From a virus, in IMG/VR virus record IMGVR_UViG_3300024496_000043, positions 1-54,527 of that record: 54,527 nt of DNA. The stretch is one strand, 5' to 3'. Positions 29,755 through 53,737 of the stretch are shown here, piece after piece. The notes under the pieces were generated by a model that saw only the letters and a program-made list of their open reading frames with translations, ran no database searches and was not told where the DNA came from. The position numbers and the translations under genes were made by a program. Position 1 is the stretch's first letter; every line of letters starts with the position of its first letter.

Positions 29755-29768
29755 TTTTTATAATTATT

Positions 29769-30875: not shown

Positions 30876-30893
30876 ATTTTATAAATACATTTT

Positions 30894-35000: not shown

Positions 35001-38000
35001 AAAGATCCAGATGTTGATTCTAACGAATTTAATCTTCCAGCAGCACTGCTTGTAAATGTATTTAAACTTGCTGTAGTTGATTCAATAACACCTAATCTTG
35101 TATTAGTAGAAGATGTGTACGAGTTTAAACTACTTGTTGCGGTATGAATTGCATTAATGTTCGTTGTATTAGAACTTGTATATGAATTCAATGAACTTGT
35201 TGTAGATTCTAATGATGTTAATCTACTAGCTGCGCTACTTGTAAATGTATTCAAACTACTTGTTGCAGTATGAATAGCATTTATGTTAATGGTGTTAGAA
35301 CTTGTATAAGAGTTTAGTGAGCTTGTTGTTGACTCAATTACCCCCAATCTTGTATTGGTACTTGATGTGTAAGAATTTAAAGAACTGGTTGCTGTTTCAA
35401 TTACCCCCAATCTTGTATTGGTACTTGATGTATAAGAATTTAAACTACTAGTTGCTGTATGAATTGCATTTATATTTGTTGTGTTAGAACTTGTATAGGT
35501 ATTTAAAGAACCTGTTGTTGTTTCTAACGATGCTAACCTACTATTCTGTGTTGTGTTAGTACTATTATTTGAACTTGTGTAACTATTAAAATCTGTTCTA
35601 ATACTACTACTTGCACTTTCTAAAGAATTTAATCTACTATTAGCACTACTTGTAAATGTATTTAAAGAACTAGTGGCTGTTTCAATTACACCTAATCTTG
35701 TATTTGTACTTGAGGTGTATGAATTTAAAGAGCTTGTTGTCGACTCAATTGCATCTAATCTTGTATTTGTACTTGAGGTGTATGAATTTAAAGACGATGT
35801 AGATACTTCAACATTACCAATTCTAGTTACTGCGTTATTAAATTCTGTTTCTCTTACAATTCTTTGTTCTGAACCTAATTGACCGGCGATCCAATAATCG
35901 TTAACCGCATCCCATAATAAAGAACCTGAAATCTGACTAGGTGCAGTTGTATCTTTAACTCTTAAACCAGCAAATGTTGCACCTGTACCATTTAAATTAA
36001 TTAAGTTATTATCAACATCAAGCGTTGTTGTATTTACGTTTGTTGTTGTACCCTTAACTAATAAGTTTCCTTTAACAGTTAAGTTAGAACCAGTCAATTC
36101 AATTGCCGATAATACTGAAGATGTAAAACTATTTAAACTTCCAGTTGCAATTTGAATTGCTGTTATATTTGGACTTGATATATTTTGGGTAACAACAAGT
36201 GTTCCAGTGATTTCAGTATTTGAATTAATTGATACTTTCGTTCCAGTGTCTGTGATATTACTATCACCTAGATGTTCATCATTTAATGATTTTATAATTC
36301 TGTTTACTGTTGGACTAGCTTCATTACCAACGTTATTAAACGTTTGTGGCCCCATCAAAATAATTGATGATGTTATTGAAGATTGATTTTGATGAATAAA
36401 AATCCATTGATTATTAACAGAATCAAATAACATTGAGCCAGAAACTTGTGGTGATGAGCCACTATCGATAACAGCCAATCCACCAAATCTTGTTGATGGA
36501 TTCTGAGCGTTTACTGTGATTAAGTTTGTACCAATGTTTAATGTACTTTGTGAAACAAAGTTGATTGAAGATGATCCGCCGATTATTAAATTTTGTGAAA
36601 CAAATAATGAACCGGTAATTGTTTGATTTCCTTGGAAGATGTTGCTACCGGTTGTTGCGTAACTACCGGTCTTTCCTTCTAATGAACTTAATCTACTGTC
36701 CTGCCCCGCATCTGTTGTTGCTAAAGAAGAACTAAATGTAGAATAACCAGTTGTACTTGCTAAACTTACTTGTGCGGAACCGGATATAACACCTTCAGCA
36801 TTAAGTCTATTCTTAATTGTTGTGTTAATTGAATTTGTGAAAGAATTCAATGATGATGTTGCAGTTTCAATTGCATTTAATCTACCGTTAGTGCTACTTG
36901 TATAAGAATTCAAGGAACCAGTTGTAGATTCAATTACCCCTAATCTTGTATTGTTAGAAGACGTATATGAATTTAACGAAGCTGTAGTAGAGTTAAGGCT
37001 ACTATTAATTGTATTTTGAGAACTAGTATATGTGTTCAGTGAGCTAGTAGCGGTTTCAATCGCAGCTAGTCTATTATTTTGAGTTGAAACTGTTGAATTA
37101 TTTGAACTTGTGTAACTATTAAAATCGGTTCTAATAGATGAACTTGCAGATTCTAAACTATTAAGCCTACTTATAGCACTACTTGTAAATGTATTTAAAG
37201 AACTCGTACTCGTTTCGATCACACCTAATCTTGTGTTAGTAGAAGATGTATATGAATTTAAACTTGCGGTTGTACTTTCAATAACACCTAATCTCGTGTT
37301 GGTGCTTGATGTATATGAATTTAATGAACCTGTTGTTGATTCAATAACCCCTAATCTTGTATTGTTAGAAGACGTATATGAATTTAATGAACTTGTGGTA
37401 GATTCAATAACACCAAGTCTTGTGTTGTTACTTGAAGTATATGAATTTAATGAAGACGTAGTTGATTCAATTACACCTAGTCTCGTATTATTTGACGATG
37501 TATAAGTATTAAAATCGGTTCTAATAGATGAACTCGCAGATTCTAAGGAACTCATTCTACCGTTTGCGCTAGAAGTAAAATTATTTAAACTTCCTGTACT
37601 TGTTTCAATTATACCTAATCTTGTGTTAGTAGAAGATGTATATGAATTCAATGAAGATGTTGCTGTGTGAATAGCTGTTAAGCTATTATTTACACTGCTT
37701 GTAAATGTATTTAAAGATCCTGTTGTAGATTCAATTACACTTAATCTCGTATTATTTGATGAAGTATATGAATTTAACGAACTTGTTGAGGCTTCGATCG
37801 TGTTTAATCTATTGTTAGTAGAGGAAGTATATGAATTTAAACTTCCCGTAGAAGCTTCAATTGAGTTAAATCTACTATTTGCACTTGATGTAAATGTATT
37901 TAAACTTGATGTTGTGGATTCAATTACACCTAATCTTGTATTGTTACTAGCCGTATATAAATTCAAACTAGCAGTCGAGCCTTGAATGCTTATTGCTCTA

Positions 38001-39730
38001 GAATCTATTGATGTTGAAAAAGTATTATACTCATCAAACAAAATAATTCTTTCTTCGCTTCCTAATTTACCAGCCTTCCAATAATCAAGTGTACTATCCC
38101 ATAATAATGAACCAGAAATTGTGCTTGCTCCTGTTGGGTCTTGCACAACTAATCCACCGTTATTTGTACCAGTACCATTTAATTGAATTATGTTGTCTCC
38201 AATATTAACTGTGGTTGAATCTATCTGTGTTGTTGTTCCTTTAACTAATAAGTTACCCTTAACAGTTAGATTTGATCCGGTAATTTCCACCGCACCCAAT
38301 ACTGAAGAACTAAATGTATTTAAACTACTTGTTGCAGTATGAATAGCATTTATATTAACTGTATTCGAACTGGTATAAGAATTAATACTACTGCTAGCAC
38401 TTTCAAGAGAATTCAATCTACTATTTTGAGTACTATTTGTTGAGTCGTTTGAAGATGTATAAGTGTTAAAATCTGTTCTTATACTACCGCTAGCGGATTC
38501 TAATGATGTTAATCTATTATTTTGAGTACTATTTGTTGAGTCGTTTGAAGAAGTGTAGGTATTAAAATCTGTCCTGATGCTACTACTTGCACTTTCAAGA
38601 GAATTTAATCTGCTATTTGCACTACCAGTAAAGGTATTAAGCGAGGATGTGGTTAATTCTAACGAATTTACTTTTTCGTTAATACTACTTGTAAAGCCAT
38701 ATATACTACCACTAAATTGTTCAATTGAATTTGTAAAAACATTTAAAGAACCAGTTGATACTTCTAAAGCAGATACTCTACCATCATTTGATGAAGTATA
38801 TGAATTGAATACTGTTTCATCTAGTTTACCAGTACCAATCGGTTGTCCATTTAATGAAATAGAACCCGTAATATTAACAGATCCGGTAACAGATAAAGAT
38901 CCACTAACTATTTGTGAGCCTGTAAGTGAATTTGAACCAGTTGTAGCAATTCTAGCTGGATCAATATATACAATGTTTCTATCAGCTTCAAGATTTAATA
39001 TGTCTGAAACAACAGATATACTATTACCCATACCAGGGTGCGCGGTACAGTAATAGTACAAGGTTGTAGGGGTGTTGTCGGTTACCTGAATTTGAATATA
39101 GTCTGGTGTTGATCCTATTGTTACGCCTGTAGAATAAATCGTACCTCCATTGTGTGAACCATCATTTGTAGTTGAGAACCTAAATGGATGTGCCCCTATA
39201 TTTGGAAATAGAAATCTATATGTAAACCCTTTAACTAATGTTAGAGGTGGGTTTTTAACACCATCTATGTAATATTTTCCACCTAAATCAGTTACAGACA
39301 CAGTAACCAAAGAATTGGTGCCGACATTTATATTATTAACCTTTAAATTACCTGTAATTTCGGTATTTGTGTTAATTAATAAGCCATTTGCTTGTGAAAT
39401 AGATGCGGTTGCTGATCCTTGAGATATTTGACTTAAATTAAGCCCGGTTACCCCACTAGCGGGAATATTAGATAAGCCAGCCCCATTACCACTAAAAGAT
39501 CCAGTAAATGAACCTGTGGAATAGGATGCTGTAAAGTTATTAAAGCTATTCGTGTGAGCATGGAAGCTTGATGTTAGGGTATATGCTGCGGCGTGTGATG
39601 CTGAAACAGCATTTTCTGCTGTACCAGAAATGGTAGCAAATAATGTACCTAAGACCGTTAAATCACCCGAAATCTGGCCGGAGCCTGAAACCGACAGGGA
39701 ACCCGATATTTGTGGATCAAAAATATTCAT
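32045..39730 (-). CDS. Giant tail fibre protein with coiled-coil shaft
   Basis: A 2561-residue protein, the longest in the window. Residues 1-130 are an attachment-like beta region (SGSLSVSGSGQISGDLTVLG, GSFTGSFSGNGAGLSNIPAS). Residues about 141-242 are a cupredoxin-like domain. From about 315 to 1000 and 1270 to 1640 lie many 21-residue repeats (LNSYTSSNNTRLGVIESTTSS type), three heptads long, suggesting a trimeric coiled coil. Four beta modules ending SGSLLWD-x5-W interrupt the shaft. The last third has modules with LPQNIHTAATPTFAGLT and a final domain VMVMVYDSNDEMFWPSS ... RTGRVVVLR. No S74 chaperone is seen. It would reach far from the virion and place the receptor-binding part at the tip. 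Confidence 0.88.
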   Translation of the reverse strand: MNIFDPQISGSLSVSGSGQISGDLTVLGTLFATISGTAENAVSASHAAAYTLTSSFHAHTNSFNNFTASYSTGSFTGSFSGNGAGLSNIPASGVTGLNLSQISQGSATASISQANGLLINTNTEITGNLKVNNINVGTNSLVTVSVTDLGGKYYIDGVKNPPLTLVKGFTYRFLFPNIGAHPFRFSTTNDGSHNGGTIYSTGVTIGSTPDYIQIQVTDNTPTTLYYYCTAHPGMGNSISVVSDILNLEADRNIVYIDPARIATTGSNSLTGSQIVSGSLSVTGSVNITGSISLNGQPIGTGKLDETVFNSYTSSNDGRVSALEVSTGSLNVFTNSIEQFSGSIYGFTSSINEKVNSLELTTSSLNTFTGSANSRLNSLESASSSIRTDFNTYTSSNDSTNSTQNNRLTSLESASGSIRTDFNTYTSSNDSTNSTQNSRLNSLESASSSINSYTSSNTVNINAIHTATSSLNTFSSSVLGAVEITGSNLTVKGNLLVKGTTTQIDSTTVNIGDNIIQLNGTGTNNGGLVVQDPTGASTISGSLLWDSTLDYWKAGKLGSEERIILFDEYNTFSTSIDSRAISIQGSTASLNLYTASNNTRLGVIESTTSSLNTFTSSANSRFNSIEASTGSLNSYTSSTNNRLNTIEASTSSLNSYTSSNNTRLSVIESTTGSLNTFTSSVNNSLTAIHTATSSLNSYTSSTNTRLGIIETSTGSLNNFTSSANGRMSSLESASSSIRTDFNTYTSSNNTRLGVIESTTSSLNSYTSSNNTRLGVIESTTSSLNSYTSSNNTRLGVIESTTGSLNSYTSSTNTRLGVIESTTASLNSYTSSTNTRLGVIETSTSSLNTFTSSAISRLNSLESASSSIRTDFNSYTSSNNSTVSTQNNRLAAIETATSSLNTYTSSQNTINSSLNSTTASLNSYTSSNNTRLGVIESTTGSLNSYTSSTNGRLNAIETATSSLNSFTNSINTTIKNRLNAEGVISGSAQVSLASTTGYSTFSSSLATTDAGQDSRLSSLEGKTGSYATTGSNIFQGNQTITGSLFVSQNLIIGGSSSINFVSQSTLNIGTNLITVNAQNPSTRFGGLAVIDSGSSPQVSGSMLFDSVNNQWIFIHQNQSSITSSIILMGPQTFNNVGNEASPTVNRIIKSLNDEHLGDSNITDTGTKVSINSNTEITGTLVVTQNISSPNITAIQIATGSLNSFTSSVLSAIELTGSNLTVKGNLLVKGTTTNVNTTTLDVDNNLINLNGTGATFAGLRVKDTTAPSQISGSLLWDAVNDYWIAGQLGSEQRIVRETEFNNAVTRIGNVEVSTSSLNSYTSSTNTRLDAIESTTSSLNSYTSSTNTRLGVIETATSSLNTFTSSANSRLNSLESASSSIRTDFNSYTSSNNSTNTTQNSRLASLETTTGSLNTYTSSNTTNINAIHTATSSLNSYTSSTNTRLGVIETATSSLNSYTSSTNTRLGVIESTTSSLNSYTSSNTININAIHTATSSLNTFTSSAASRLTSLESTTSSLNSYTSSNTTNINAIHTATSSLNSYTSSTNTRLGVIESTTASLNTFTSSAAGRLNSLESTSGSLNSYTSSNTTNINAIHTATSSLNSFTSSASSRLNAIETATSSLNSYTSSNNTAISAINTATSSLNTFTSSFNSAFSLSGADVTVRGNFTVSGTTTTVNSTTVNIADNIIQLNGTGATNAGLVVRDATAANLTSGSLLWDTTNDKWIAGPLGAEDDVVLRTTSQTLTNKTISGASNTLSNIGNSSLTNSSISIAGNSISLGGSITAATILSGTGTVSGSAQLTSSFVQKAGDTMTGQLIIGSTGTGNAATLKVNNSSAATFNHSIEAFSANMTAGQTNIIVVGSAGSTKNSGYIGYNWAGAGSNSNYVSLGHWGADHLFRIYGDGTVYMGTVTTGVWNGTSIGTAYTDAKITSVAGTTNQVNVSASTGAVTFSLPQNIHTAATPTFAGLTSTGRVQIGGSDSRGVLTVQTGSTQTFTANTDPTDAGRFFVMQNTDTTNAAGQYSNITLQINPGGSIGSGRVLGDIRLVRNGLNGTSARFVFGAFRDDSTYKDYLTLDFGGATFSGSINGLSVSGGTITSGTWNGSSISTTYTAAKVTAVNAGTGISVDTTTGSVTVTNSGVTSITGTANQVTASASTGGVTLSLPQNIHTGASPTFGGLTVNGGATSATFRNTTASSNSNVCMGNDQTTNGAGIALLGSTFTASGQYRASGGYVYSNLAGGLTLHAEGANSLYLATNGVAAITINSSQTVAFGGNLTTPNTTSFGLQDVGGTAWFRPRDAANNLHIRTSSGGIYLDTNGTIYFRNVAGTVEGYIDSSNGGGRLMDTTLYANAAAMNQSVTTTATPTFGGLTVGNGVATGRSTYGIANANIVLTSSASDATGYCGIDFRSGNNYPSDGAQIYYENNSGGTSERAKLTIRVENDQEDFMEIRAGRIDINSNTVSGGGQATLVNFQSAGSTVAYVTSGGAIYARSGNLVKDFGNSTYATSFSNVSSVTVTHNLGSKDVMVMVYDSNDEMFWPSSIVTTNTNVVTITFAANRTGRVVVLR
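34790..38830 (-). repeat. 21-residue (63-base) coiled-coil repeats of the fibre shaft
   Basis: Two blocks (about 36800-38830 and 34790-35810) of imperfect 63-base units with consensus SLNSYTSSNTRLGVIE plus a STTS link. Leu, Tyr, Leu and Ile fall at heptad-like positions. All units are in frame, and variants (AIHTATSSLN, SLESASSSIRTDFN) form second and third unit types. This is protein repetition, not a CRISPR array. Confidence 0.85.
39005..39310 (-). other. Cupredoxin-like domain inside the fibre gene
   Basis: Fibre residues 141-242: strands LVTVSVTDLGGKYYIDG, LTLVKGFTYRFLF and IQIQVTDNT, with GAHPFRF (H181) and YYYCTAHPGMGN (C228, H231, M234). The His plus Cys-x2-His-x2-Met set and spacing are those of type 1 copper sites in plastocyanin-like proteins. 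Copper binding is inferred. Confidence 0.65.
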
Positions 39731-39793: not shown

Positions 39794-40852
39794 TTAGATG
39801 ATCGACTTCTTTTTTAAATCGATAAATTCATGCAAGTTGTGGAATATATATGGATCGGTACCAATCTTGGCAAATTCTTTTAAAAATTCAGCGTGTTCTG
39901 GGTGGTTTGTGTCCCATATTTTAATTTTTTCAAACTCTTGAATACTGTATGTTCCCCAGTTATTGATTCTACCAAAAAATATTCTAGCCTTTTCTTTCAA
40001 TATTTTTTTCATAGTATCCGCAAATAGCCCCATTTCTTTATAATTCTGAGATTGTACAACAAATGAAACTTTTATCTTTCTTATGGAAGGTATCGTATAT
40101 ATAAATTCAAGATTGTTTAACAAATTTCCCCAATTCCCACCCAGTCTAGTGATATTTTCATATGTGTATTGTGTACCAGCATCTATACTTATTTCACAAG
40201 ACTCTACATATTTGTGAATATTAGGCATACTTTCCCACATACCCTTATTCCATAAGCTAGCATTAGTATGTAAATGTATATTTTTTAATTTTGGGTATTT
40301 TCCTGGGGTGAAATTTCTAAGATAATTTCTATAAGATACCGAAGCGAATGGATCGGCGGTACCCGAGCAATATATAGTTTCTATAGAATCAGAATAAGCC
40401 TCCTCAAATTCATATATTTTTCTATCTATTTCTTTTATCTCTTCACTGCTTGCCACAATCATTTTAATTCTACAGGAAGGACATTTATAATTACAAGTCC
40501 TATCAAATGACATTTGGAATATCTTTGGGCCGTAATCAACATAACCAGATTTTAAATTTAATATTTTTTCAGATACGTCTTTTCGATGTTGTATTGGACC
40601 AATAAATCCACCATCAAATGTTAATAATTGAGATAAAAATGGACATTGGTGTTTATCACAAAATCTATATGATCCGTCTAATACAGATTCTCTAATTTCT
40701 ACCGCCTCATTTGAATTCCATAAATCTTTTAATGGTACATCATTAGGTAATTCTTTTAATAGCCAACTAGCACAACACATAAAGTTTTTATTTCCATGTA
40801 TTTCTAAAGCCTGGAAAGGAACTGTACATATATAGTTTTTTAAGCCAACCAT
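39794..40852 (-). CDS. Radical SAM enzyme with N-terminal cysteine cluster
   Basis: A 352-residue protein whose radical SAM motif is C120-x3-C124-x2-C127 in DRTCNYKCPSC. IYCSGTADPFAS takes the place of the GGE motif, and LHTNASLW follows. Cysteines at 9, 26, 27, 65 and 70 before the core look like a SPASM-type auxiliary cluster moved to the N-terminus, as in some sugar- or peptide-acting enzymes. It ends KKKSII, one of seven proteins in this part with a Ser-(Ile/Leu)-Ile end; here no start codon overlaps that tail. The substrate is unknown. Confidence 0.85.
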   Translation of the reverse strand: MVGLKNYICTVPFQALEIHGNKNFMCCASWLLKELPNDVPLKDLWNSNEAVEIRESVLDGSYRFCDKHQCPFLSQLLTFDGGFIGPIQHRKDVSEKILNLKSGYVDYGPKIFQMSFDRTCNYKCPSCRIKMIVASSEEIKEIDRKIYEFEEAYSDSIETIYCSGTADPFASVSYRNYLRNFTPGKYPKLKNIHLHTNASLWNKGMWESMPNIHKYVESCEISIDAGTQYTYENITRLGGNWGNLLNNLEFIYTIPSIRKIKVSFVVQSQNYKEMGLFADTMKKILKEKARIFFGRINNWGTYSIQEFEKIKIWDTNHPEHAEFLKEFAKIGTDPYIFHNLHEFIDLKKKSII

Positions 40853-41506
40853 TTAAATTAAACTTTTACTTTTTGTGGGTATTCTTACTATTTTATGTGG
40901 GGCATCTATCCATAATTTAATACATTTTTCGTATTTTCTTAATCCCAAATATTCGTTTAGTTGATTAATTTTTACAGTATCTTTTTTAATAAAAATATCT
41001 TCATACGTAAACAACGGAAATCCATTTTTAGAAATAGTATCAAGCACTTTTGCTTCGGCTTTTAAATCTTTTTCAAGTTTCTGGATATTTTTCTCATCTT
41101 CAACGGATAGTTCGTAGTATCTTGGTTTATGCCAATTTATGGGTATTTTAGAGTTGTTTGATAATTTTTCGTGAAAGATAATACTTTCGGCTTGCAGTCT
41201 TTTATTCTCTCTTTCCAGTAATATTATTTTGTCAAAAAACGTTTGAAGCCATTTTAAATAATCATCATAATTGTTAAACGATTCGTAAGGGTATCCATCA
41301 TCATCTAAAAAAGTCTTTATAAGTATATTTTTTTTATCTATAATTTTATCTATATTTTTATGTTTATTCTCACTATCTGATGTTCTAAAATTAAATGGCT
41401 CGAACATAACATCAAATTTTTTATTTTCTGAAGTTAAACAACAATTTATATAATTAAATAGTGATGTAGAACCACTTCTAGCGTTACATAATATTGCGAT
41501 CCTCAT
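40853..41506 (-). CDS. Sulfotransferase family protein
   Basis: A 217-residue protein with RIAILCNARSGSTSLFNYI at its N-terminus: RSGSTS (10-15) is the PAPS 5'-phosphate-binding loop. VMFEPFNF follows at the place where such enzymes have the acceptor base. FTYEDIF near residue 166 and the LNEYLGL segment fit the C-terminal part of sulfotransferases. It would move sulfate from PAPS to a sugar or tyrosine. It ends SKSLI, with stop TAA directly followed by the next ATG. Confidence 0.75.
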   Translation of the reverse strand: MRIAILCNARSGSTSLFNYINCCLTSENKKFDVMFEPFNFRTSDSENKHKNIDKIIDKKNILIKTFLDDDGYPYESFNNYDDYLKWLQTFFDKIILLERENKRLQAESIIFHEKLSNNSKIPINWHKPRYYELSVEDEKNIQKLEKDLKAEAKVLDTISKNGFPLFTYEDIFIKKDTVKINQLNEYLGLRKYEKCIKLWIDAPHKIVRIPTKSKSLI

Positions 41507-42057
41507 ATTAATTTTTTTTCTTTGTCTAGTTTGTAATAATTAAAATCGGTATCGTTAATCCAAATATTAAGTGCGCATCTAAGTCCGTTAAACACTGGCA
41601 TAACCCCATGGTATATTTTATTACCCTCAAATGTAACCCCCTCACCAATATTTAAATGAACTTTAACATCTGAATCTTTTATGTTAACACTTTTTCTAGA
41701 TAAACAAAAATCGCCATCTTCATAACCATCCGAAAGAGATATTACAGTAGTATAATTGGAGGTTTTATCTAAATGTAGATCGAGATATCTTCCATCATAA
41801 TATCTAGTTAAACTTATATTAACATTCTTTATGTTAAACTCACCATAATTAAACCAGAATTCAATTTTTTTTTCTAAATAAAGTTCCTTGATTTTATTTA
41901 TTACCCTATTCTTAAAATTTTCATCATAAATTCTTCTACAATCCCAACTGTTTAATTCGTGCTTATAGTATGAAAATACTTCACCGTTTTGCATTGAAAA
42001 ATCAATTAAATAATCACACTCGTCTTTATCAAAAAATTTATTTACTGAATATTTCAT
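41503..42057 (-). CDS. 2OG-Fe(II) oxygenase, prolyl-4-hydroxylase-like
   Basis: This 184-residue enzyme has the double-stranded beta-helix core of 2-oxoglutarate oxygenases: iron ligands H95 and D97 in LDLHLDKTSNY, H150 in NKIYHGVMP, and 2OG-binding R160 in GLRCALNIW. Such enzymes hydroxylate (or otherwise oxidise) amino acid side chains or small molecules. It ends EKKLI and overlaps the next gene by four bases. Confidence 0.85.
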   Translation of the reverse strand: MKYSVNKFFDKDECDYLIDFSMQNGEVFSYYKHELNSWDCRRIYDENFKNRVINKIKELYLEKKIEFWFNYGEFNIKNVNISLTRYYDGRYLDLHLDKTSNYTTVISLSDGYEDGDFCLSRKSVNIKDSDVKVHLNIGEGVTFEGNKIYHGVMPVFNGLRCALNIWINDTDFNYYKLDKEKKLI

Positions 42058-42875
42058 ATAATATAAGAATTAGGTATAGATGCTTTTTCTAATAATCCGT
42101 TTTTTAAAATAAAACTATATAACTCATCAGCAATTAATTTATAACCATTTTTGTTTGGGTGTTTACCGGCCGTATTTTCTGTCCAATAATTTCCATCCTC
42201 CCAAACATCACTTCTTTTCGTGTCTATCAAAAAGTCTGCAAATGTTTTATCTTTAAATCCCCAATATCTATTTTTATCTATATGTCTTGTATTGTCAACT
42301 TCTTCTATAATATCACTACTTATCATTCCATCAAAAGCATCACAGAAAAGATATCTTATACCCATTCCTTTAAACATAAATTGAAGATATAGTATATAAT
42401 TTTGATTTACTATGTCATAATACGTGTTAGTAAAAAGATCCGTAACATAAAAATCTCTAAAATTTTTCTCTATCCTATTGTATTCGAAGTTTGAATCACT
42501 ATCTTTTTCAAACAAATACCTATATAAAAATCTTTTGTTTTTATATCTTTTACCCCATAAATTAAAATTATTATCTTTTGGAAAGAATGGTAAATTGTCT
42601 CTCAATGATGAGGACCACATTATAACAACAAAATCATCTTTGCCGATGATTTTATTTTTTAATCTTGAACAAATTGAATCGAATATAACATGATTACAAA
42701 AACCACCGACGCCGTCATTTTGAAATTCACATTTAAGTAAATCGGAAAGATGTTTTGGCCAACAATATTTGTGTCTTATAATTGTTCTTTCTTCTGGGAC
42801 TTCAGTTGTTTTTTCTTCATTTATATTTCCACCCACACCTTCGGTCCAGCTGTCACCATAAGCAAACAATTTCAT
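42054..42875 (-). CDS. SGNH/GDSL-like hydrolase
   Basis: A 273-residue protein starting KLFAYGDSWTEGVGG (S9 nucleophile), with FQNDGVGGFCNHV as the Gly block and KHPNKNGYKLIADEL as the C-terminal Asp/Lys-His block (H in KHPNKNG). It is the longest of the four SGNH paralogs here and lies between the oxygenase and the Hint gene. It may act on carbohydrate acyl groups. It ends PNSYII. Confidence 0.75.
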   Translation of the reverse strand: MKLFAYGDSWTEGVGGNINEEKTTEVPEERTIIRHKYCWPKHLSDLLKCEFQNDGVGGFCNHVIFDSICSRLKNKIIGKDDFVVIMWSSSLRDNLPFFPKDNNFNLWGKRYKNKRFLYRYLFEKDSDSNFEYNRIEKNFRDFYVTDLFTNTYYDIVNQNYILYLQFMFKGMGIRYLFCDAFDGMISSDIIEEVDNTRHIDKNRYWGFKDKTFADFLIDTKRSDVWEDGNYWTENTAGKHPNKNGYKLIADELYSFILKNGLLEKASIPNSYII

Positions 42876-42879
42876 AGGT

Positions 42880-43020
42880 TTATCCTAAATGCTTATTTTT
42901 TATTGCGTTAACTACTTCTTGAAATGCTGCTGAAACTTTTGTTTTAAGTTCATTTGATATTGGGGCGATAATTGGTTTAATCACCTGCGCCGGTCTTTCT
43001 ATTCTTTCTTTTTGTGCCAT
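42880..43020 (-). CDS. Small helical protein next to the Hint gene
   Basis: A 46-residue frame: MAQKERIERPAQVIKPIIAP then NELKTKVSAAFQEVVNAIKN. It lies 23 bases after the Hint gene and four bases before the SGNH start, in the same direction. It is amphipathic and helical, with no cysteine. Function unknown; the position makes it a possible partner or structural gene. Confidence 0.5.
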   Translation of the reverse strand: MAQKERIERPAQVIKPIIAPISNELKTKVSAAFQEVVNAIKNKHLG

Positions 43021-43043
43021 TTTTATGTGATTTATATTTTTTA

Positions 43044-44528
43044 TTAAAGTTTACTTTGTCCGCCGCTACAACTTGGACAATACCAACTATTGCACCAGTG
43101 GCCGCAATAGTTCCATGGACACCAGCAAGAGTTGTGCATAACGCTAAAATCACCGTCACCTATATCAACTAAGAATAAATCGGACGGTTCAAAATCTAAA
43201 GTATAAATTGTCTTTTGAGCGTGTTCCATTTCCAGGCTAGCAATCTCTACTTTAGTTAGTTGATTGGTATTTGAATCTGTTATAACTAACTTGTCACCAA
43301 CATACATTTTATTAACTCTTTCGAATTTGGTTGCTGTTGAATCTTTTTCTTCAATATAGTACACACAAGATGGTGCATCTATCCAGCTTCTGCCATCAAC
43401 TAATGTTATTCTAATATATATGGTGTCAACTAAAGATGATACTTTGTTTTGAAGTGTTGTACCTGTTTGAATTAGTGTTTCATTATCCCTTACCAAATTA
43501 CTATCCCATCCAAAAACTTCAACCTTACCCTCTTCAAATTTGGCTGCATGGTTATCGTTAAAATCAACATAGTCGATTGATCTCATGAAATCACCCAATT
43601 GAATGGTATCCACATCAGCCAATGTTCCGTCATATTTTAATATTTGACTATCGTCATCTGTATGATAATCATTTATGGTTGACTCGCCAATTTCTTTGGT
43701 AATATATTTAAATCTACTTTTTTGGTTTAATCTATTAGTACCGGCTACATATTCATCGGCATAGAAAGATAATGGTAAAATCGTAGATTGTGTATATCCC
43801 CCCATGTTTATAATATCTAAATTAGGCCCGTATATAATATCGATACTTCTAATAATTGAATATCTACCTTCAACTAGGTTATCCTCTGAGAATATAAACT
43901 CTTGAGCTAAACAATCTGACTCTACTGATGACTTTAACGTGCTTAATTCATTTGAATCGCTAACTTTATGAATAGCTGGATATGTTAAAACGTTATATTG
44001 TGGAGATTTTGATTTTATTAAAACGTTAGGTGCGGTGCTACTAAAATCAACATCATCCAAAGTATCAAGGCTCAATTGAGGTGAGTTAAAATAGGTTTTT
44101 GGCGAATAGGTTGACCCGCTCATTAGTGAGAAAAACTCAAATTTATCTGCACAATATGTTTCATCAACCAGGGCAGTGGTATCAAAAGACTGCCTTAATA
44201 TAAACTTATTTGGGGCGTCTTCAATGTAAGGAACAGTAACAGAATTCATGGGAACAACATATTCATTAAAAGTAATATTGTTTTCCAAGCATTTTTCCTG
44301 TAGTATTTTTTTAAATTTAAATGGTTCCATCATTGGCTTATAGGAATCGCCCTGTGTCCAAATAAAGTGGAATTCTGTTATGTTGTTAGCATTTAAAACA
44401 CTAAAAAGTGGATCGTAGTCCAACAATTCAGCACCTGCATTATAAATTGTGGTGTTTGTATTTATTTCTAAAAACTTAACCGTATCATCTTTCTGTAGTA
44501 AATCACTACCAATTATTGTTGCTTTCAT
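43044..44528 (-). CDS. ATP-grasp-like protein fused to a Hint domain and a Cys/Trp-rich tail
   Basis: A 494-residue protein in three parts. Residues 1-280 resemble an ATP-grasp enzyme (FLEINTNT; FILRQSFDTT; ADKFEFFSLM; VLIKSKS). Residues about 290-466 resemble a Hint (intein-like) domain: DDSQILKYDGTLADVDTI then LGDFMRSIDY, later MYVGDKLVITDSN, IYTLDFEPSDLFLVD, and a final MHN (H465-N466) before S467. The usual N-terminal Cys/Ser nucleophile is not apparent, so C-terminal cleavage without splicing is likely. The last 28 residues (467-494) hold six cysteines (C-x-C-x4-C-x3-C-x4-C-x2-C) and four tryptophans. Release by Asn cyclisation would free that peptide. No comparable protein is known to me. 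Confidence 0.6.
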   Translation of the reverse strand: MKATIIGSDLLQKDDTVKFLEINTNTTIYNAGAELLDYDPLFSVLNANNITEFHFIWTQGDSYKPMMEPFKFKKILQEKCLENNITFNEYVVPMNSVTVPYIEDAPNKFILRQSFDTTALVDETYCADKFEFFSLMSGSTYSPKTYFNSPQLSLDTLDDVDFSSTAPNVLIKSKSPQYNVLTYPAIHKVSDSNELSTLKSSVESDCLAQEFIFSEDNLVEGRYSIIRSIDIIYGPNLDIINMGGYTQSTILPLSFYADEYVAGTNRLNQKSRFKYITKEIGESTINDYHTDDDSQILKYDGTLADVDTIQLGDFMRSIDYVDFNDNHAAKFEEGKVEVFGWDSNLVRDNETLIQTGTTLQNKVSSLVDTIYIRITLVDGRSWIDAPSCVYYIEEKDSTATKFERVNKMYVGDKLVITDSNTNQLTKVEIASLEMEHAQKTIYTLDFEPSDLFLVDIGDGDFSVMHNSCWCPWNYCGHWCNSWYCPSCSGGQSKL

Positions 44529-44545
44529 AATTTTTTTTGTACTAA

Positions 44546-44553
44546 TATAAATA
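44546..44553 (-). promoter_or_regulatory. TATTTATA box in the Hint gene leader
   Basis: On the minus strand TATTTATA, 18 bases upstream of the start at 44528, in an 83-base A/T-rich leader. Candidate promoter element; in AT-rich DNA, chance is hard to exclude. Confidence 0.3.
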
Positions 44554-44611
44554 TACCATTCAGACTATTATTTGTAAAGTATTATTGCTAATAAATATAT
44601 ATACATATATA

Positions 44612-44899
44612 TCAAATTATAGATTTGTTATCCTTAGTTGGTAATAAATCTATATAATTTTGGTCCACGATTTCCCATTTTTTTTGTGTACAGGGATTAT
44701 AGAAGTTTGAAAAAACCTTTTTATTTAGTGGGCATCCGCAATCGGCGCAATATGCTGACCACTTGACCCCCTTTAGAACTTCTTTTCTATAATTACACCC
44801 CAAGCATATTTGCAGTCTTTCTTGTGCTAGTTTTTCTTGCTCAACTGATGGGTTGAATGAGATTTTCCAAGCTTCAAATATTTCCTTATAATCGATCAT
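44612..44899 (-). CDS. Zinc-ribbon protein
   Basis: This 95-residue protein has a helical N-terminus and a four- to six-cysteine ribbon: C32-x2-C35, C51-x2-C54 with C56, and C70. The C-x2-C-G-C-P-L-N-K-K pattern is one I have seen in small phage zinc proteins. It may bind a nucleic acid or partner enzyme. It ends DNKSII, followed by 83 bases with no start, so its end motif is not due to an overlapping start codon. Confidence 0.7.
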   Translation of the reverse strand: MIDYKEIFEAWKISFNPSVEQEKLAQERLQICLGCNYRKEVLKGVKWSAYCADCGCPLNKKVFSNFYNPCTQKKWEIVDQNYIDLLPTKDNKSII

Positions 44900-45687
44900 A
44901 TTATGCTATTATCCATTTTGGGTAAATCGTAATAATCATAAATAGTATTGTATCTTTTTACAAATTCATCATCAAAACTAATTTTACATTCAATATGCTT
45001 ACTTGAATTAACAGACTGAAGTTTGAAGGGTTTATTTAGGGTTTCTGATACCCAATTTTCTAATTTATCCATTTCATTGAAATCAAACCAAATTATATCT
45101 TTATCATTATTAGTCCAAAAAGATATGGGGGTTAATAAAATGTCGATCATATTGATCACATACGCCTTTGTATTTTTTTTAAAATACTCCTCTTCTGATT
45201 TCTTAAACTTTGAGGTTACTGATATGTTGATTTTTTTATCTAGTAATTTTAAATCAACTAAGTAATTGGAAATAGCTTCCCATCTACTTCGTTTTGTTAT
45301 TAAATCATCCTTAGAAAAGAAAAATAATCCGTCTAAATCCAGATTCGAAAAAACATCGTGTATATCATTATGACCCATTCTTTTCAGGTCAAATAACACA
45401 TGCTTATATAAGGAAAAAAATCTTTCGTGTCGCTGTCTTTTAACAGAAATAACTGGGTAATTGTATCCAAATTTACCTTTTAATTCACCTATAGACTCAT
45501 GCCCATGGTATATGAAATCCATGATCTTAGATTTATCAACTAATGTAAAATCAATATCATTATTTGCTATTTCCCACTCACCATTATATGTTTGTACTTT
45601 AATGTTATTAAGAATACAAGAATAATTGAACGATGTGGAAGCGCATCTAGGTAAACTTAAGTATAGGAATTTATTTTCAACTAGCAT
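44896..45687 (-). CDS. Sulfotransferase family protein
   Basis: I choose the ATG at 45687 (TAATG with the oxygenase stop), giving 263 residues; a frame to 45723 adds 12 residues overlapping the upstream gene. FLYLSLPRCASTSFNY has the PAPS-binding loop, and VKRQRHERFFSLYKHVL matches the 3'-phosphate loop with its Arg and the RFFSLY feature. It belongs to the family-2-type sulfotransferases acting on glycans. It ends MDNSII and overlaps the zinc-ribbon gene by four bases. Confidence 0.78.
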   Translation of the reverse strand: MLVENKFLYLSLPRCASTSFNYSCILNNIKVQTYNGEWEIANNDIDFTLVDKSKIMDFIYHGHESIGELKGKFGYNYPVISVKRQRHERFFSLYKHVLFDLKRMGHNDIHDVFSNLDLDGLFFFSKDDLITKRSRWEAISNYLVDLKLLDKKINISVTSKFKKSEEEYFKKNTKAYVINMIDILLTPISFWTNNDKDIIWFDFNEMDKLENWVSETLNKPFKLQSVNSSKHIECKISFDDEFVKRYNTIYDYYDLPKMDNSII

Positions 45688-46256
45688 TATATTAAACTTT
45701 TTTTTATCTTTTTTCTTGGCCAAACATTTAAAGAAAATCTTTCCCCAAATGTTACTTTATCTACAGAGTGTTGTATGTTAGAATCAAATATAAAAACACT
45801 ACCTTGTTTTTTTTCAACAAAATGCTCGTCTTCATTTAACATATATTTGACATAACCATCTGTATAATCGTCATTAAGTTGAACAATATATGTGATTGTT
45901 GCGCCATTTAATACTTCGTGGTTATCTGAATGCCAATCTAAAAAATCCCCCTCACAATATTGATTAAAAGAATAGCTAACAATATCTTCATATGTTACCC
46001 CATTAAATGGATTAATCTGGTTGGATAATTCTATTATTTTTTTAGATAGATTTTTTAATACGGGGGTATCAAGTGTATCGCCTATAAAATAACAACCAGT
46101 TCTTTTATTATTGTCATATTCAACATTTTGTTCAACAAGTTTACCATTAACAAATCGCGAAGATTTCATTCTTAATAATTCACTCGACTTACCCAACTGT
46201 ATTATTTCTTCACATTCGTCTTTTGTAAGAAACCCTTCAACATATTTTGTAAACAT
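45687..46256 (-). CDS. 2OG-Fe(II) oxygenase, prolyl-4-hydroxylase-like
   Basis: A 189-residue oxygenase with iron ligands H109-x-D111 (DWHSDNHE), H163 (IQHSVDKV) and the 2OG arginine R173 (GERFSLNVW). N-terminal EGFLTKDECEEIIQL is typical of P4Hc proteins. It is directly after a second oxygenase and next to the tryptophan halogenase, an arrangement that has been seen in cyanophages. It ends KKSLI with a TAATG overlap. Confidence 0.87.
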   Translation of the reverse strand: MFTKYVEGFLTKDECEEIIQLGKSSELLRMKSSRFVNGKLVEQNVEYDNNKRTGCYFIGDTLDTPVLKNLSKKIIELSNQINPFNGVTYEDIVSYSFNQYCEGDFLDWHSDNHEVLNGATITYIVQLNDDYTDGYVKYMLNEDEHFVEKKQGSVFIFDSNIQHSVDKVTFGERFSLNVWPRKKIKKSLI

Positions 46257-46257
46257 A

Positions 46258-46911
46258 TTAAATAATCGATTTTTCTTTCTTTATATACTCAAACCCCACA
46301 TTACCAGCCATAACGATTCTGTCTATTGTTGATTTAGGAGCATTATTAGGTGCGTGTGGCATATCGCCCGGCATTATAATTATATCATCCTCTTCTGGTC
46401 TAATCCAGTATTCTTTATTATTATTACCCTTAAAATATAAAACACCATCGTAATCTTCCATCACATCTGGCATTTGAATATAATAAACATAAGTAAAATC
46501 TGGAACAAACGACCCCATTTGCTTATTGATGTCAGTGTGAACATGGTATTTGTCAACATCTTTTAATTCCCCGTGTTTAAATTGGATTTGGACTGGGTCT
46601 TGAGAGCGAACAACATTCACCCATGCATCGGTGTTAATTTTATTATATATTTTGTTTTTATCTTGATAAATCTCTTTACAAAGATCAATCCCCATTTGAA
46701 CTATTACATCTAGATTTGTTTCTATATTAATTTCACCAATAAAATTCAAATTATTGTTCCATTCTTTTTTGTAACCAAATCCATCTGTTTTCACATCTGG
46801 TTGGGAATCTATTACTGAATACGCTTCTTTTAATAAAATGGATTTATAGTCAACCTTATTTAATTTAGTTTTCCATATACATGTAGATTCATCAAAGTAA
46901 ATTTTTTCCAT
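46258..46911 (-). CDS. 2OG-Fe(II) oxygenase-like
   Basis: A 217-residue protein with KYHVHTDINKQMGSF (H125, D127), PEEDDIIIMPGDMPHAPN (H186) and IDRIVMAGNV (R198), which give the facial triad and 2OG arginine. The first 100 residues are an extra domain with conserved-looking aromatic positions. It lies between the halogenase and the other oxygenase and overlaps the halogenase end by 20 bases, so joint action is plausible. It ends KKEKSII. Confidence 0.8.
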   Translation of the reverse strand: MEKIYFDESTCIWKTKLNKVDYKSILLKEAYSVIDSQPDVKTDGFGYKKEWNNNLNFIGEINIETNLDVIVQMGIDLCKEIYQDKNKIYNKINTDAWVNVVRSQDPVQIQFKHGELKDVDKYHVHTDINKQMGSFVPDFTYVYYIQMPDVMEDYDGVLYFKGNNNKEYWIRPEEDDIIIMPGDMPHAPNNAPKSTIDRIVMAGNVGFEYIKKEKSII

Positions 46912-48118
46912 CAGTAATTAATTTTCTATTTTTAATCCCATTGTTTATGATGTTCCAAGCATCTATTGGGAAAATTTCTAAGAATTTCCACACCTCATTT
47001 ATCTTTATATCGCTCTTAATGTTATCCTGATTATCAATGATATCTAGTAATCTTTTTGGTTTATTTTTTCTAGATTCCATTACTTTTTTCCAAAAGAATG
47101 TCGTGTCTTTGTTTCCAAAATAATGGTAATAAATGAACAACATATTTTGGTTGTTTACTTCGTGAACTAAGTCATTATAATTTTCAGGTGTTTTGTTTTT
47201 CATTGTCATATTATAAAAAACAATAAGCTGGATCACCGTAGTCATAATTGATGTTGCTTCTAACGGTTCTAAAAACCCACCACTTAAACCTATCGCTATA
47301 CAATTTTTAATCCACACTTTTTCATAACAACCAGGTTCAAACTTTATTAATTTATTAAATTCTACGTTATGCCCCAAAAATTTGATCACCTCTTGTTTTG
47401 CTTCTTCTTCTGTGATTTCATTCATGTCGAATATATAACCACATCCCTTTCTGGTTTGCAAAGGTATTTGCCACATCCATCCATGATTCATAGCAATTGA
47501 ACGAGTTTTGGTGTATAATTCGTTTGTATTCTCATGTATGAAAAATGGGATCGCTGCATTAACTTTTAAATGCTCAGAATATGATTTCCATTTTGACTTA
47601 TAATGATTTCCAATTAACAGTCGTCTAAATCCAGTACAGTCAATCACAAAATCAGATGGAACGATAGTTTCACCTACTTTTAATCCAACTATTTCATCAT
47701 TATCATTTGTAATTGGTTTTTCTACTATTCCTTCGACCCAAATAACGCCTCTTTCGAGTGAAACCTTTTTCAAATATTTGGCAAATAGGCGAGCGTTAAA
47801 ATGAAATGCATGAATAGGTATTTTGCCTAGTTTGTTATATTGTAATGGATGAAAATAGCTATCGTTTTCATTCGTCCAATTTTCAAAATCTATACCAACC
47901 TTGAATGTTGCATCACAATTTTCTATTAAATCATTATCTGTTATCCCCAACTCATTTAATATGGTTTTTAGATTTGCAGTAGATCCTTCACCAGCCCCGA
48001 GTATACCAATTTCGTCCGACTCAATTAATGTAATATTTGAATTTTTAAATTTATCATTCAGATATAACGCACTTAGCCACCCAGCGGTACCTCCACCTAT
48101 AATGACAATATTATTCAT
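46892..48118 (-). CDS. Flavin-dependent tryptophan halogenase
   Basis: Starting at 48118 (TAATG overlap), this 408-residue enzyme has the FAD motif GGGTAGW (8-14), the family-defining W-x-W-x-I-P at 214-219 (GWMWQIPL), a lysine at K73 in TFKVGIDFENW that matches the catalytic K79 of PrnA, and E287 in GFLEPLEATS matching the catalytic Glu. It should chlorinate or brominate an indole or similar ring using reduced FAD, O2 and halide. No flavin reductase is nearby, so the host's would be needed. Phage halogenases are known but their substrates are not; tryptophans of a phage or peptide product are possible. Confidence 0.9.
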   Translation of the reverse strand: MNNIVIIGGGTAGWLSALYLNDKFKNSNITLIESDEIGILGAGEGSTANLKTILNELGITDNDLIENCDATFKVGIDFENWTNENDSYFHPLQYNKLGKIPIHAFHFNARLFAKYLKKVSLERGVIWVEGIVEKPITNDNDEIVGLKVGETIVPSDFVIDCTGFRRLLIGNHYKSKWKSYSEHLKVNAAIPFFIHENTNELYTKTRSIAMNHGWMWQIPLQTRKGCGYIFDMNEITEEEAKQEVIKFLGHNVEFNKLIKFEPGCYEKVWIKNCIAIGLSGGFLEPLEATSIMTTVIQLIVFYNMTMKNKTPENYNDLVHEVNNQNMLFIYYHYFGNKDTTFFWKKVMESRKNKPKRLLDIIDNQDNIKSDIKINEVWKFLEIFPIDAWNIINNGIKNRKLITDGKNLL

Positions 48119-48333
48119 TATTTGTTTTTGTTTATTAAGCCAAATTTTATCCATTTATACCACACCCTTTCGTGTAAAAAATATATTACTGGTTTTAAAA
48201 TTAATTCACCAATCCCAACCATGCCAGCCCATTTTAATGGGAGTCCAGCTGAGACTGTTAATATAATTGTTGTTAAAGTCCCAATTAATCTATAACTGAT
48301 ACTTTTAGCTATGTGTCTTTTTACCAGTGGCAT
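48118..48333 (-). CDS. DUF2061 membrane protein
   Basis: A 71-residue protein with RHIAKSISYRLIGTLTTIIL and ELILKPVIYFLHERVWYKW, the hallmarks of DUF2061 (two membrane helices ending in HERVW). DUF2061 genes occur beside sulfate activation genes in Bacteroidota. Its position next to APS kinase fits that habit. It shares bases with both neighbours (TAATG and a 29-base overlap). Confidence 0.88.
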   Translation of the reverse strand: MPLVKRHIAKSISYRLIGTLTTIILTVSAGLPLKWAGMVGIGELILKPVIYFLHERVWYKWIKFGLINKNK

Positions 48334-48670
48334 CTATTTCTCCTTTTCTAATTTTAGTTCCGCTTATTTCCGCAATTTCATTTGGTGGCTCATGATAAAT
48401 AACATCATATCCAACGCCCCTACCATAATTTACCGATTCAATATCTGGGATAATTGATACAAAAAGTTTATCCCAATTTTGTTGGAAGAAAGGCTCATTT
48501 TGTAGCATTGTTAAAACTTCATGCGCTGTTTTTGGGTTATTCTCATCAACTTTAACGTCTCTGATTGCTACCCAAACATTTTTACCTTTATCTAATTGTT
48601 GGCGAATAAGCCATTCATGGCCAGCGTGCCAATTTTGCCATCTTCCGATGTACATTGCATATTTCTTCAT
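48305..48670 (-). CDS. HxGH nucleotidyltransferase
   Basis: A 121-residue protein with the class-I nucleotidyltransferase motif H15-A-G-H18 in GRWQNWHAGHEW and a late ISGTKIRKGEID, the ISxTxIR motif. The family joins nucleotides to phosphates (NMN, phosphopantetheine, glycerol phosphate); ATP sulfurylase is a distant relative. It overlaps the APS kinase gene by four bases, which hints at a role in sulfate or nucleotide activation, although it is far too short for a classical ATP sulfurylase. Confidence 0.72.
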   Translation of the reverse strand: MKKYAMYIGRWQNWHAGHEWLIRQQLDKGKNVWVAIRDVKVDENNPKTAHEVLTMLQNEPFFQQNWDKLFVSIIPDIESVNYGRGVGYDVIYHEPPNEIAEISGTKIRKGEIDATGKKTHS

Positions 48671-49101
48671 AAGAAAAGTGTATTAAGTAATTTATTAGTG
48701 GATTCTTCTACTGATTGATCTGTTGTATTCATATCAAGATACCTTTCTGTTGGTGGTTCATAGTCATCAACAGCAAAATGCTCTCTACCTCTTGTTTCAG
48801 TGGTATGCACATATATTTCTACAACAGAATTCTCTGATTTAAATTTATCTCTCTGGTCTTTATATGGAGAAACCAAAGACACAACTACTGAATACCCTTT
48901 AGTATTCAAGAACTTAGCAATGTCTTGTGCTCTTTCGATATTCTTTCTGCGTCCAGCTTCTGAATAATCTTTATTTTTAAATACATCTCTTAGATGGTCA
49001 CCATCTATATGTATCGTTGTTGCTGCTGGGAGATGTTTCATTAATTCTAAAGCCAGCGTAGTTTTACCCGATCCGGGTTGTCCTGTAAACCAATATATCA
49101 T
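48667..49101 (-). CDS. cysC: Adenylylsulfate (APS) kinase
   Basis: A 144-residue P-loop kinase: GQPGSGKT (7-14), IDGDHLRDVF (D33-G-D35), DYSEAGRRKNIERAQD and VVSLVSPYKDQR are all APS kinase features. The end HFAVDDYEPPTERYLDM matches the substrate-closing region. It is shorter than the 200 residues of E. coli CysC but has the full set of motifs. It would phosphorylate APS to PAPS, the donor for the two sulfotransferases at 40853 and 44896. It has its own A/T-rich leader. Confidence 0.88.
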   Translation of the reverse strand: MIYWFTGQPGSGKTTLALELMKHLPAATTIHIDGDHLRDVFKNKDYSEAGRRKNIERAQDIAKFLNTKGYSVVVSLVSPYKDQRDKFKSENSVVEIYVHTTETRGREHFAVDDYEPPTERYLDMNTTDQSVEESTNKLLNTLFL

Positions 49102-52310: not shown

Positions 52311-52880
52311 TTATATTGAGCATTTTTTTAATGCATATGATAAAGCGATTCCTTCGGCATTATCATAGCTAGGATATGTTGGATTTTTTAATGACATCTT
52401 TCTGAACAATGGTTGAATATTTTTAAGATGTTTAACTAAGCAATTAGCGTCAATATCTTTAGAAAAGAATAATTCTGTTTCTCTGATTGCCACTAATTCT
52501 GTGTAATCTATATCCGGTTCTGACCAATCTTCTATTAATGGATTAAAAAATTCATATTGAAGATAGTCTTTGAGGTGATTACCAAACGGCCAATGCGATT
52601 TAAAATAAAATTTATTTGTTTTTACAAAATCGAAATTAACCTCAGATGTCTTAGTTATGTCAACATAAAAAACATCCCTTTTGAATTTATTGACCATATT
52701 CAAGCTGAAGTATAGTTTATCAAAATATGAAAATTTATCATTCATATATTTCTCGTAATAAAAAATATTTTTAGTTTCAATATCGCTTAATAAGCATATG
52801 TCATATGATTTAAAAAAATCTAACGCTTCTTTTAATTTATCATTATAATGCTCCCCAACTGAAACTAATGCTATTATCAT
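52311..52880 (-). CDS. Putative glycosyltransferase-related protein
   Basis: A 189-residue protein, IIALVSVGEHYNDKLKEAL at the start and VFYVDITKTSEV near residue 70, which looks like a GT-A strand with a single Asp. It lacks an obvious D-x-D, so may be inactive or only structurally related. Its start is at an exact TTAATATGA junction with the oxygenase gene before it. Confidence 0.45.
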   Translation of the reverse strand: MIIALVSVGEHYNDKLKEALDFFKSYDICLLSDIETKNIFYYEKYMNDKFSYFDKLYFSLNMVNKFKRDVFYVDITKTSEVNFDFVKTNKFYFKSHWPFGNHLKDYLQYEFFNPLIEDWSEPDIDYTELVAIRETELFFSKDIDANCLVKHLKNIQPLFRKMSLKNPTYPSYDNAEGIALSYALKKCSI

Positions 52881-53617
52881 ATTAATGATTTTTTTGTAAT
52901 ATTATCACCATCTTGTATATTAAAGTTTATTACACATCTATGAGTTTTTCCATAAAATGGTTTAACAGAATGTACAATATCGTATGGCCATATCATTAAT
53001 AAACCCTTCTTAGGCTTTATAAAATGAGACATACCTCTAACATGAAACGTAAATACACCACTATATGGATGATCCGCGATTGGGTTACCATCACTGAGAT
53101 AATACCCACCTACAAAACTTAAACTAGTTTCTTCGTCCGGAGACCATCTACAATGATTATGTTGATTGTGTCCTCTACCTGATGTTGGGGCATAATATTG
53201 AATCCAGCTCTCAGTAATATTTGGATTATTATTATGTAAAAAATCTAATTTATTTAACATATCTATATAACCTTCTTCACATCTTTTACGGATAGTTTTA
53301 ATTGATTCTTCGGGTCTATCTAAGAAATCGTTAGGTGGAACAGCAAATCTGCTACCTATTGGGTTGAACTCTGTGGGTTCTACCCACATATCTCTATTAT
53401 TATAGTTTATCTCATATGTTGATTGTCGTTCAAAATCGTAAACTTCCGGTAACTCTTGTCCCATTCTTTTTTGTTCTTCGCTTAGTTCGTTAAACCCAAT
53501 ATTATATACTTCGTCATGCAGATCGTGGTCATCAAACTGTTTAACATATAAAGGTATAGGAGCTAAATGAAAAATGTTTTCCTGATGTGTGTTTATTATT
53601 GGATTTTTAAAATACAT
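52877..53617 (-). CDS. 2OG-Fe(II) oxygenase-like
   Basis: A 246-residue protein with a histidine-rich loop GHNQHNHCRW (150-157), FVGGYYLSDG, YDIVHSVKPFYGKTHRCVINF (H216, R227), the order of 2OG oxygenases in large phages. The exact first iron ligand among the 150-155 histidines is unclear. The first 140 residues are an N-terminal extension seen in T4-type phage relatives as I recall. It ends TKKSLI at an ATGA overlap. Confidence 0.78.
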   Translation of the reverse strand: MYFKNPIINTHQENIFHLAPIPLYVKQFDDHDLHDEVYNIGFNELSEEQKRMGQELPEVYDFERQSTYEINYNNRDMWVEPTEFNPIGSRFAVPPNDFLDRPEESIKTIRKRCEEGYIDMLNKLDFLHNNNPNITESWIQYYAPTSGRGHNQHNHCRWSPDEETSLSFVGGYYLSDGNPIADHPYSGVFTFHVRGMSHFIKPKKGLLMIWPYDIVHSVKPFYGKTHRCVINFNIQDGDNITKKSLI

Positions 53618-53620
53618 AAC

Positions 53621-53737
53621 TTAATGTTTATAAGTGAATGGATCTCGTTTTTTAAGTTCCTTTATTTTTTTTTCAAATCTTTTTTTCTTTTTATAGTCTT
53701 GAATTTTGTTTAAAATCCATTGAATTAGTCTTTTCAT
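53621..53737 (-). CDS. Very small basic protein
   Basis: A 38-residue frame: MKRLIQWILNKIQDYKKKK then KKIKELKKRDPFTYKH. The RDPF-x-YK end is a pattern I recall from tiny proteins of other large phages, which supports it being real. Start context AAACTAATATGAAA. It could bind nucleic acid or membranes. Confidence 0.6.
   Translation of the reverse strand: MKRLIQWILNKIQDYKKKKRFEKKIKELKKRDPFTYKH

Follow-up and report, generated by a model that had tools for sequence, protein, structure and literature searches.

We propose that the 494-aa protein encoded on the minus strand of this viral DNA is a self-processing precursor, in which a Hint domain has lost its N-terminal half-reaction and would carry out C-terminal cleavage only, freeing a short Cys/Trp-rich peptide within a dedicated gene module. 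Taken as a whole, with peptide release inside the module at its core, this explanation has in our judgment about an even chance of being right. In the window (the whole stretch of DNA analysed, 54,527 nucleotides), the ORF reads from 44528 to 43044, and the protein ends in ...FSVMHN followed by SCWCPWNYCGHWCNSWYCPSCSGGQSKL. Its parts are the following:

43044-44528, minus strand: ORF of 494 aa, ATP-grasp-like domain, Hint domain and Cys/Trp tail
43665-44528, minus strand: residues 1-288, permuted ATP-grasp-like domain of the glutathione synthetase/GshA type (AF2 model and Foldseek)
43131-43664, minus strand: residues 289-466, predicted Hint domain (AF2 model and Foldseek), with D293 at the nucleophile site and an invariant H465-N466
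43131-43136, minus strand: H465-N466, predicted Asn-cyclisation cleavage site, invariant in 101 distinct complete proteins
43047-43130, minus strand: 28-residue conserved tail, predicted released peptide (pLDDT < 50)

Relatives of the protein are carried by at least 216 IMG/VR stretches (104 to 216 depending on the query), from which we inspected the loci most similar to the 494-aa protein. No relative was found among cultured phages (INPHARED, 50,697 records) or in GTDB species genomes. The gene is single-copy in each of 10/10 phage records, of 93-289 kb each. Searches of Pfam, NCBIfam and PDB sequences gave no significant match to the protein or its family, HMMER profile searches of the PDB left the family unmatched, and the best PHROGs match belongs to a single family member (E 0.0012) and leads to a family of unknown function. 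Because the baseplate protein of one carrier phage has its nearest cultured relatives in Microcystis phage Mel-JY01 and Flavobacterium phages, we guess that the hosts are Bacteroidota.

An AlphaFold (AF2) model of the protein, built on 51 family members, has a mean pLDDT of 76 and gives residues 289-466 a beta-rich fold. Foldseek returned 52 PDB matches to this region at E<=0.001 (best E 5.5e-8), with inteins, hedgehog and a BIL domain in the top rows at probability 1.00, and the best target-normalised TM is 0.82, against 4o1r. The Hint-like character noticed from the sequence is thus borne out by structure prediction, and since it is fold rather than a profile match that defines the superfamily, residues 289-466 as modelled are a member of the Hint (hedgehog/intein) superfamily, placed by fold only. 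A profile match to residues 290-466, which the sequence-only reading had looked to for support, did not emerge: the Hint/intein profiles of Pfam, the PDB and NCBIfam give none that is significant. Comparison with two intein sequences yielded no usable alignment to the protein, and it is therefore the structure model that carries the Hint claim.

The residues kept and lost within this domain can be read against known mechanisms. C-terminal cleavage depends on the terminal Asn aided by the penultimate His, the +1 nucleophile serving the ligation steps (PMC7765530, PMC4031507); in inteins His G:6 and Asn G:7 drive the reaction, and His F:13 is dispensable in some (PMC4031507). A-type BIL domains also finish with His-Asn and are cut at their own C-terminus, with no +1 nucleophile required (PMC7765530); the 494-aa protein resembles them in its predicted fold, its His-Asn end and its free +1 position, and a cut by the Asn is predicted here too. 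Alignment of relatives shows the C-terminal His-Asn of inteins in 64/64, and every one of the 101 distinct proteins that are complete at the C-terminus has it too; two further relatives end at contig edges and fall outside these 101. Both synonymous codons are used at each position (His CAC 77/CAT 21, Asn AAC 62/AAT 36), and the conservation of HN together with the tail pattern is far beyond chance. The +1 position, Cys/Ser/Thr in inteins, is S or T in this family but also G, A, P, Q or N. What had been described as an HN-S junction is therefore better called 'HN-any': HN holds in 101/101, but Ser follows Asn in only 53/101.

At the other end of the domain, the absence of a Cys before DSQILKYDG was correctly noted. 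Residues 291-293 are DDD, in the context YHTDDDSQIL, and the nucleophile position, Cys/Ser in inteins, is Asp/Glu in 92/92 proteins where the motif could be located (D293 here). BIL domains retain their N-terminal Cys, and the A-type sits in hypervariable proteins, whereas the 494-aa family always has Asp/Glu at this position and conserved flanks. The block-B His of the intein TxxH motif is also missing, position 388 being C, A, S or T in relatives. Because HN is kept, the nucleophile and block-B His are lost and the +1 residue is free, a single cut after N466 is expected; the pattern looks like the signature of a Hint domain with C-terminal cleavage only. By motif reading, the block-F His (F:13) appears to be replaced by an invariant D450, so catalysis could be weak, which lowers our confidence in cleavage somewhat. 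Even so, we consider the predicted cleavage and release after N466 likely.

The tail itself has the spacing first described, C-x-C-x4-C-x3-C-x4-C-x2-C, with Cys at 468, 470, 475, 479, 484 and 487 and Trp at 469, 472, 478 and 482. It is unstructured in the AF2 model (pLDDT < 50) and near-invariant in sequence across relatives, and its standing as a conserved unit is upheld by the persistence of a Cys tail in all 101 distinct complete relatives. Six Cys is the rule, in 67 of 74 distinct tails; six other tails carry eight, and the remaining one carries nine. Cys471 and Cys480 occur together in all seven proteins with extra Cys, and since the two are always gained together, the tail cysteines are probably paired; on the family tree the pair was gained three independent times, too small a number to support statistics (sign test p 0.25), though it is the pattern expected of paired cysteines. 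Trp469, Trp472, Tyr474 and aromatic residues at 478 and 483 are largely conserved, and the protein's own end is K-[LIV] in most relatives.

Modelled alone with AF2, the N-terminal domain (about residues 1-288) reaches a pLDDT of 84.5. Foldseek matches it to the gamma-glutamylcysteine ligase GshA (3k1t, E 2.1e-4, probability 1.00) and to a glutathione-synthetase-like protein (5oeu, E 2e-3, probability 0.96); the ATP-grasp matches are a handful of structures at a moderate TM of 0.42. No ATP-grasp sequence profile matches the 494-aa protein significantly, and the RimK profile reaches E 0.057 at best, in 3/51 family members. E21-x-N23, K172, Q209-E210-F211 and R227 are invariant in the family, and we take them to be the Mg/ATP residues of ATP-grasp, with QEF as the hinge and the E-x-N near the N-terminus presumably as in circularly permuted eukaryotic glutathione synthetase-type enzymes. 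By the model, the fold and the E-x-N would be shared with the glutathione-synthetase/GshA ligases (3k1t, 5oeu), but a sequence-level match is absent and, unlike those ligases, the domain is fused to Hint. The suggestion of an ATP-grasp-like N-terminal part finds some support in the model and the Foldseek matches: residues 1-288 resemble an ATP-grasp domain, with weaker support than the Hint fold has.

We compared module order and synteny across 88 loci and found gene order to be nearly constant. Upstream run an APS kinase, a nucleotidylyltransferase, a membrane protein, a 2OG oxygenase, the halogenase, a second 2OG oxygenase, sulfotransferase 1 and a 95-aa protein; from the 494-aa gene on come a 46-aa protein, an SGNH hydrolase, a 2OG oxygenase, sulfotransferase 2, and then radical SAM or other genes. 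The module members listed from the window, with their C-terminal residues where these matter below, are:

48667-49101, minus strand: APS kinase, source of PAPS for sulfotransferases, untagged; PF01583 E=5.7e-19
46892-48154, minus strand: flavin-dependent tryptophan-halogenase family protein, ends GKNLL; PF04820 E=3e-91
46258-46911, minus strand: 2OG-Fe(II) oxygenase-like protein, ends EKSII; PF13640 E=2.8e-4, under the curated cutoff
45687-46256, minus strand: 2OG-Fe(II) oxygenase, ends KKSLI; PF13640 E=4e-11
44896-45687, minus strand: sulfotransferase-like ST1, ends DNSII; homologue L078 matches PF03567 at E=3.6e-4, just under the curated cutoff
44612-44899, minus strand: 95-aa Cys-rich protein, CxxC...CxxCGC, ends NKSII
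42880-43020, minus strand: 46-aa conserved partner MAQKERIERPAQVIKPIIAPISNELKTKVSAAFQEVVNAIKNKHLG, directly downstream of the 494-aa gene in 80/80 loci, median gap 26 nt
42054-42875, minus strand: SGNH/GDSL-like hydrolase (DUF6071), ends NSYII; PF19547 E=1.9e-7
41503-42057, minus strand: 2OG-Fe(II) oxygenase, ends EKKLI; PF13640 E=1.8e-6
40853-41506, minus strand: sulfotransferase-like ST2, ends SKSLI; homologue L138 matches PF00685 at E=9.8e-5
39794-40852, minus strand: radical-SAM-like protein, ends KKSII; PF04055 E=0.005, weak

The halogenase and 2OG oxygenases reported earlier are indeed present, but the single sulfotransferase gives way to two sulfotransferase-like genes and an APS kinase. 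For ST1, the ORF list has an upstream TTG start at 45723. The association of the 494-aa gene with a halogenase, oxygenases and sulfotransferases is conserved across the 88 loci; overall, the earlier reading is partly borne out, in the fold, the lost N-terminal nucleophile with the conserved HN, the tail unit, the ATP-grasp-like domain and this association, though not in the HN-S junction. No members of the module are more constant than the 494-aa protein and its 46-aa partner, which lie at the module's centre. The partner is unannotated and consists of an (E)RPxxxIK motif and a helix-like stretch ending in KHL. Halogenase together with several 2OG oxygenases also occurs in cyanophage halogenase/2OG/carbamoyltransferase clusters, but these have no Hint-ATP-grasp protein and no tag on the homologues checked, and a sulfotransferase is not named in the paper (PMC7824862).

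The module enzymes end in a common tag, K-[ST]-[LI]-[IL]-COOH or close variants, in which [LI][IL] is nearly fixed in eleven unrelated families. In the window, nine of nine enzymes flanking the 494-aa gene are tagged or near-tagged (39794-48154; also 52877-54414). Across the loci, [STNK][LI][ILM] ends 637/1291 ORFs, compared with 1.05% of interior positions, and the tag is found in 89-100% of the main oxygenase, sulfotransferase and Cys4 families (100% for ST1). Under a strict tag pattern, a 289-kb phage has it in 7/11 module ORFs versus 8/361 elsewhere, and it ends 0/77 ORFs around halogenase homologues in three Kyanoviridae that lack the 494-aa protein. The synonymous codons of the tag vary and are near background at most positions; since the codons are background-like and [LI][ILM] is present in 210/213 genes that stop short of the following start codon, selection acts on the protein. 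The second count also led us to reject start/stop overlap as the cause, and we rejected a late-promoter origin because TATAAATA occurs less often in the window than chance predicts (5 vs 14 expected) and codons are near background. No PDZ reader of the tag was found in 10 phage records. Literature searches, which could not be run on the motif itself, gave no description of the tag, and it is apparently undescribed. That eleven unrelated enzyme families carry it points strongly to a recruiting mechanism, and we found none such described. The tag, the invariant 46-aa partner and the Cys-pair covariation go beyond what the sequence-only reading contained.

The steps that we infer are cleavage, Cys pairing, ligase activity, use of the tail as a substrate and a role for the tag, and they would fit together as follows. 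N466, aided by H465, would cyclise to a succinimide and cut the 466-467 bond, freeing a Trp/Tyr-rich peptide of ~25-33 residues with six (sometimes eight) Cys that are probably paired. The glutathione-synthetase-like ATP-grasp domain would be an ATP-dependent amide ligase whose substrate is either this peptide or some protein that the module encodes. The 494-aa protein and its 46-aa partner would stand at the heart of this modification module of the phage, whose enzymes the common tag would gather. The most economical reading is a RiPP-like pathway in which the freed peptide would be the product, or a carrier decorated by the tagged enzymes; the ATP-grasp domain and tagged enzymes probably act on the freed peptide or on some common target. 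That the module enzymes modify the tail is plausible, though less likely than not: the tail is near-invariant, unlike many RiPP cores, and sugars, lipids or virion proteins are equally conceivable targets of the module. In a proteusin system, a RiPP flavin brominase acts on the C-terminal peptide of a folded precursor, as proposed here, but there a leader directs the enzyme (PMC10858898); in the phage module the peptide would be freed by Hint, and the enzymes share a C-terminal tag. Only tentatively, then, do we suggest a new RiPP-like layout, with the precursor fused behind ATP-grasp and a cleavage-only Hint and with the tag, not a leader, recruiting tailoring enzymes. If the tail is released, the protein would be a naturally occurring phage Hint protease that cuts once and has a ligase-like domain attached, a combination kept in some two hundred uncultured phage contigs; if the module also modifies the tail, these phages would produce, in the course of infection, a ribosomal peptide that is then decorated.

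Other arrangements would account for parts of this evidence. The Hint domain might be catalytically dead, with HN structural and the tail a permanent metal- or disulfide-bearing mini-domain of the ATP-grasp enzyme, for example for docking or redox. Cleavage itself is read from sequence and model, D450 stands where a block-F His is usual, and many other Hint-strand residues are as invariant as HN in the family alignment. A purely structural role of HN is nevertheless disfavoured because the kept and lost residues follow function: the nucleophile and block-B His are gone, HN is present in 101/101, and the +1 position is free to the point of accepting Pro. We regard a dead domain as unlikely.

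Another arrangement keeps the release but makes the freed tail an effector or regulator, like the payloads that Hint domains release from polymorphic toxins, while the module decorates a virion adhesin, a surface glycan or a small molecule. In such toxins, for instance MafB (PMC4524018), a pretoxin-Hint directly precedes the C-terminal payload, as here, and for similar enzyme mixes in cyanophages, decoration of polysaccharide or synthesis of a small metabolite has been proposed (PMC7824862). The tail Trp is also independent of the halogenase: at least seven loci lack that gene and still have Trp469. Halogenase presence is therefore not supported as the explanation of the tail Trp, and a role as halogenase substrate leaves these residues unexplained. 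But the toxin tails are variable and this one, a short Cys/Trp peptide, is hardly so; the 494-aa protein has no secretion domain, and its N-terminal domain is ATP-grasp-like; the 46-aa downstream protein, which may be an immunity partner, is the sole candidate for one; and the 494-aa and 46-aa proteins are the most constant, central members of the module. We consider an effector tail rather unlikely. GSS-group ATP-grasp enzymes make amide bonds, and the tag could itself be the ATP-grasp substrate, an amine (perhaps the new N-terminus of the freed tail) being ligated to tagged C-termini in the manner of tubulin-tyrosine ligase or RimK. The carboxy-terminal position of the tag in eleven unrelated families and its 0/77 count in phages without the 494-aa protein fit such a role, but simple docking explains the tag equally well, and we consider ligation to it very unlikely.

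Some smaller observations concern the tail and the rest of the window. The halogenase-negative loci L067, L107, L121, L124, L125 and L137 mostly have S or G in place of P at 471 (CWCSW versus CWCPW); this shift falls largely in one clade of the tree, with L018 as the exception. Elsewhere in the window, at 28642-32027, lie three tandem paralogues of 370, 368 and 377 aa that all end in VNGGTSSGHCGWR plus one residue, and the two that were checked belong to phrog_1417. They adjoin a gene at 32045-39730 for a 2561-aa protein with degenerate SLNSYTSSNNTRLGVIESTT repeats, likely a long fibre.
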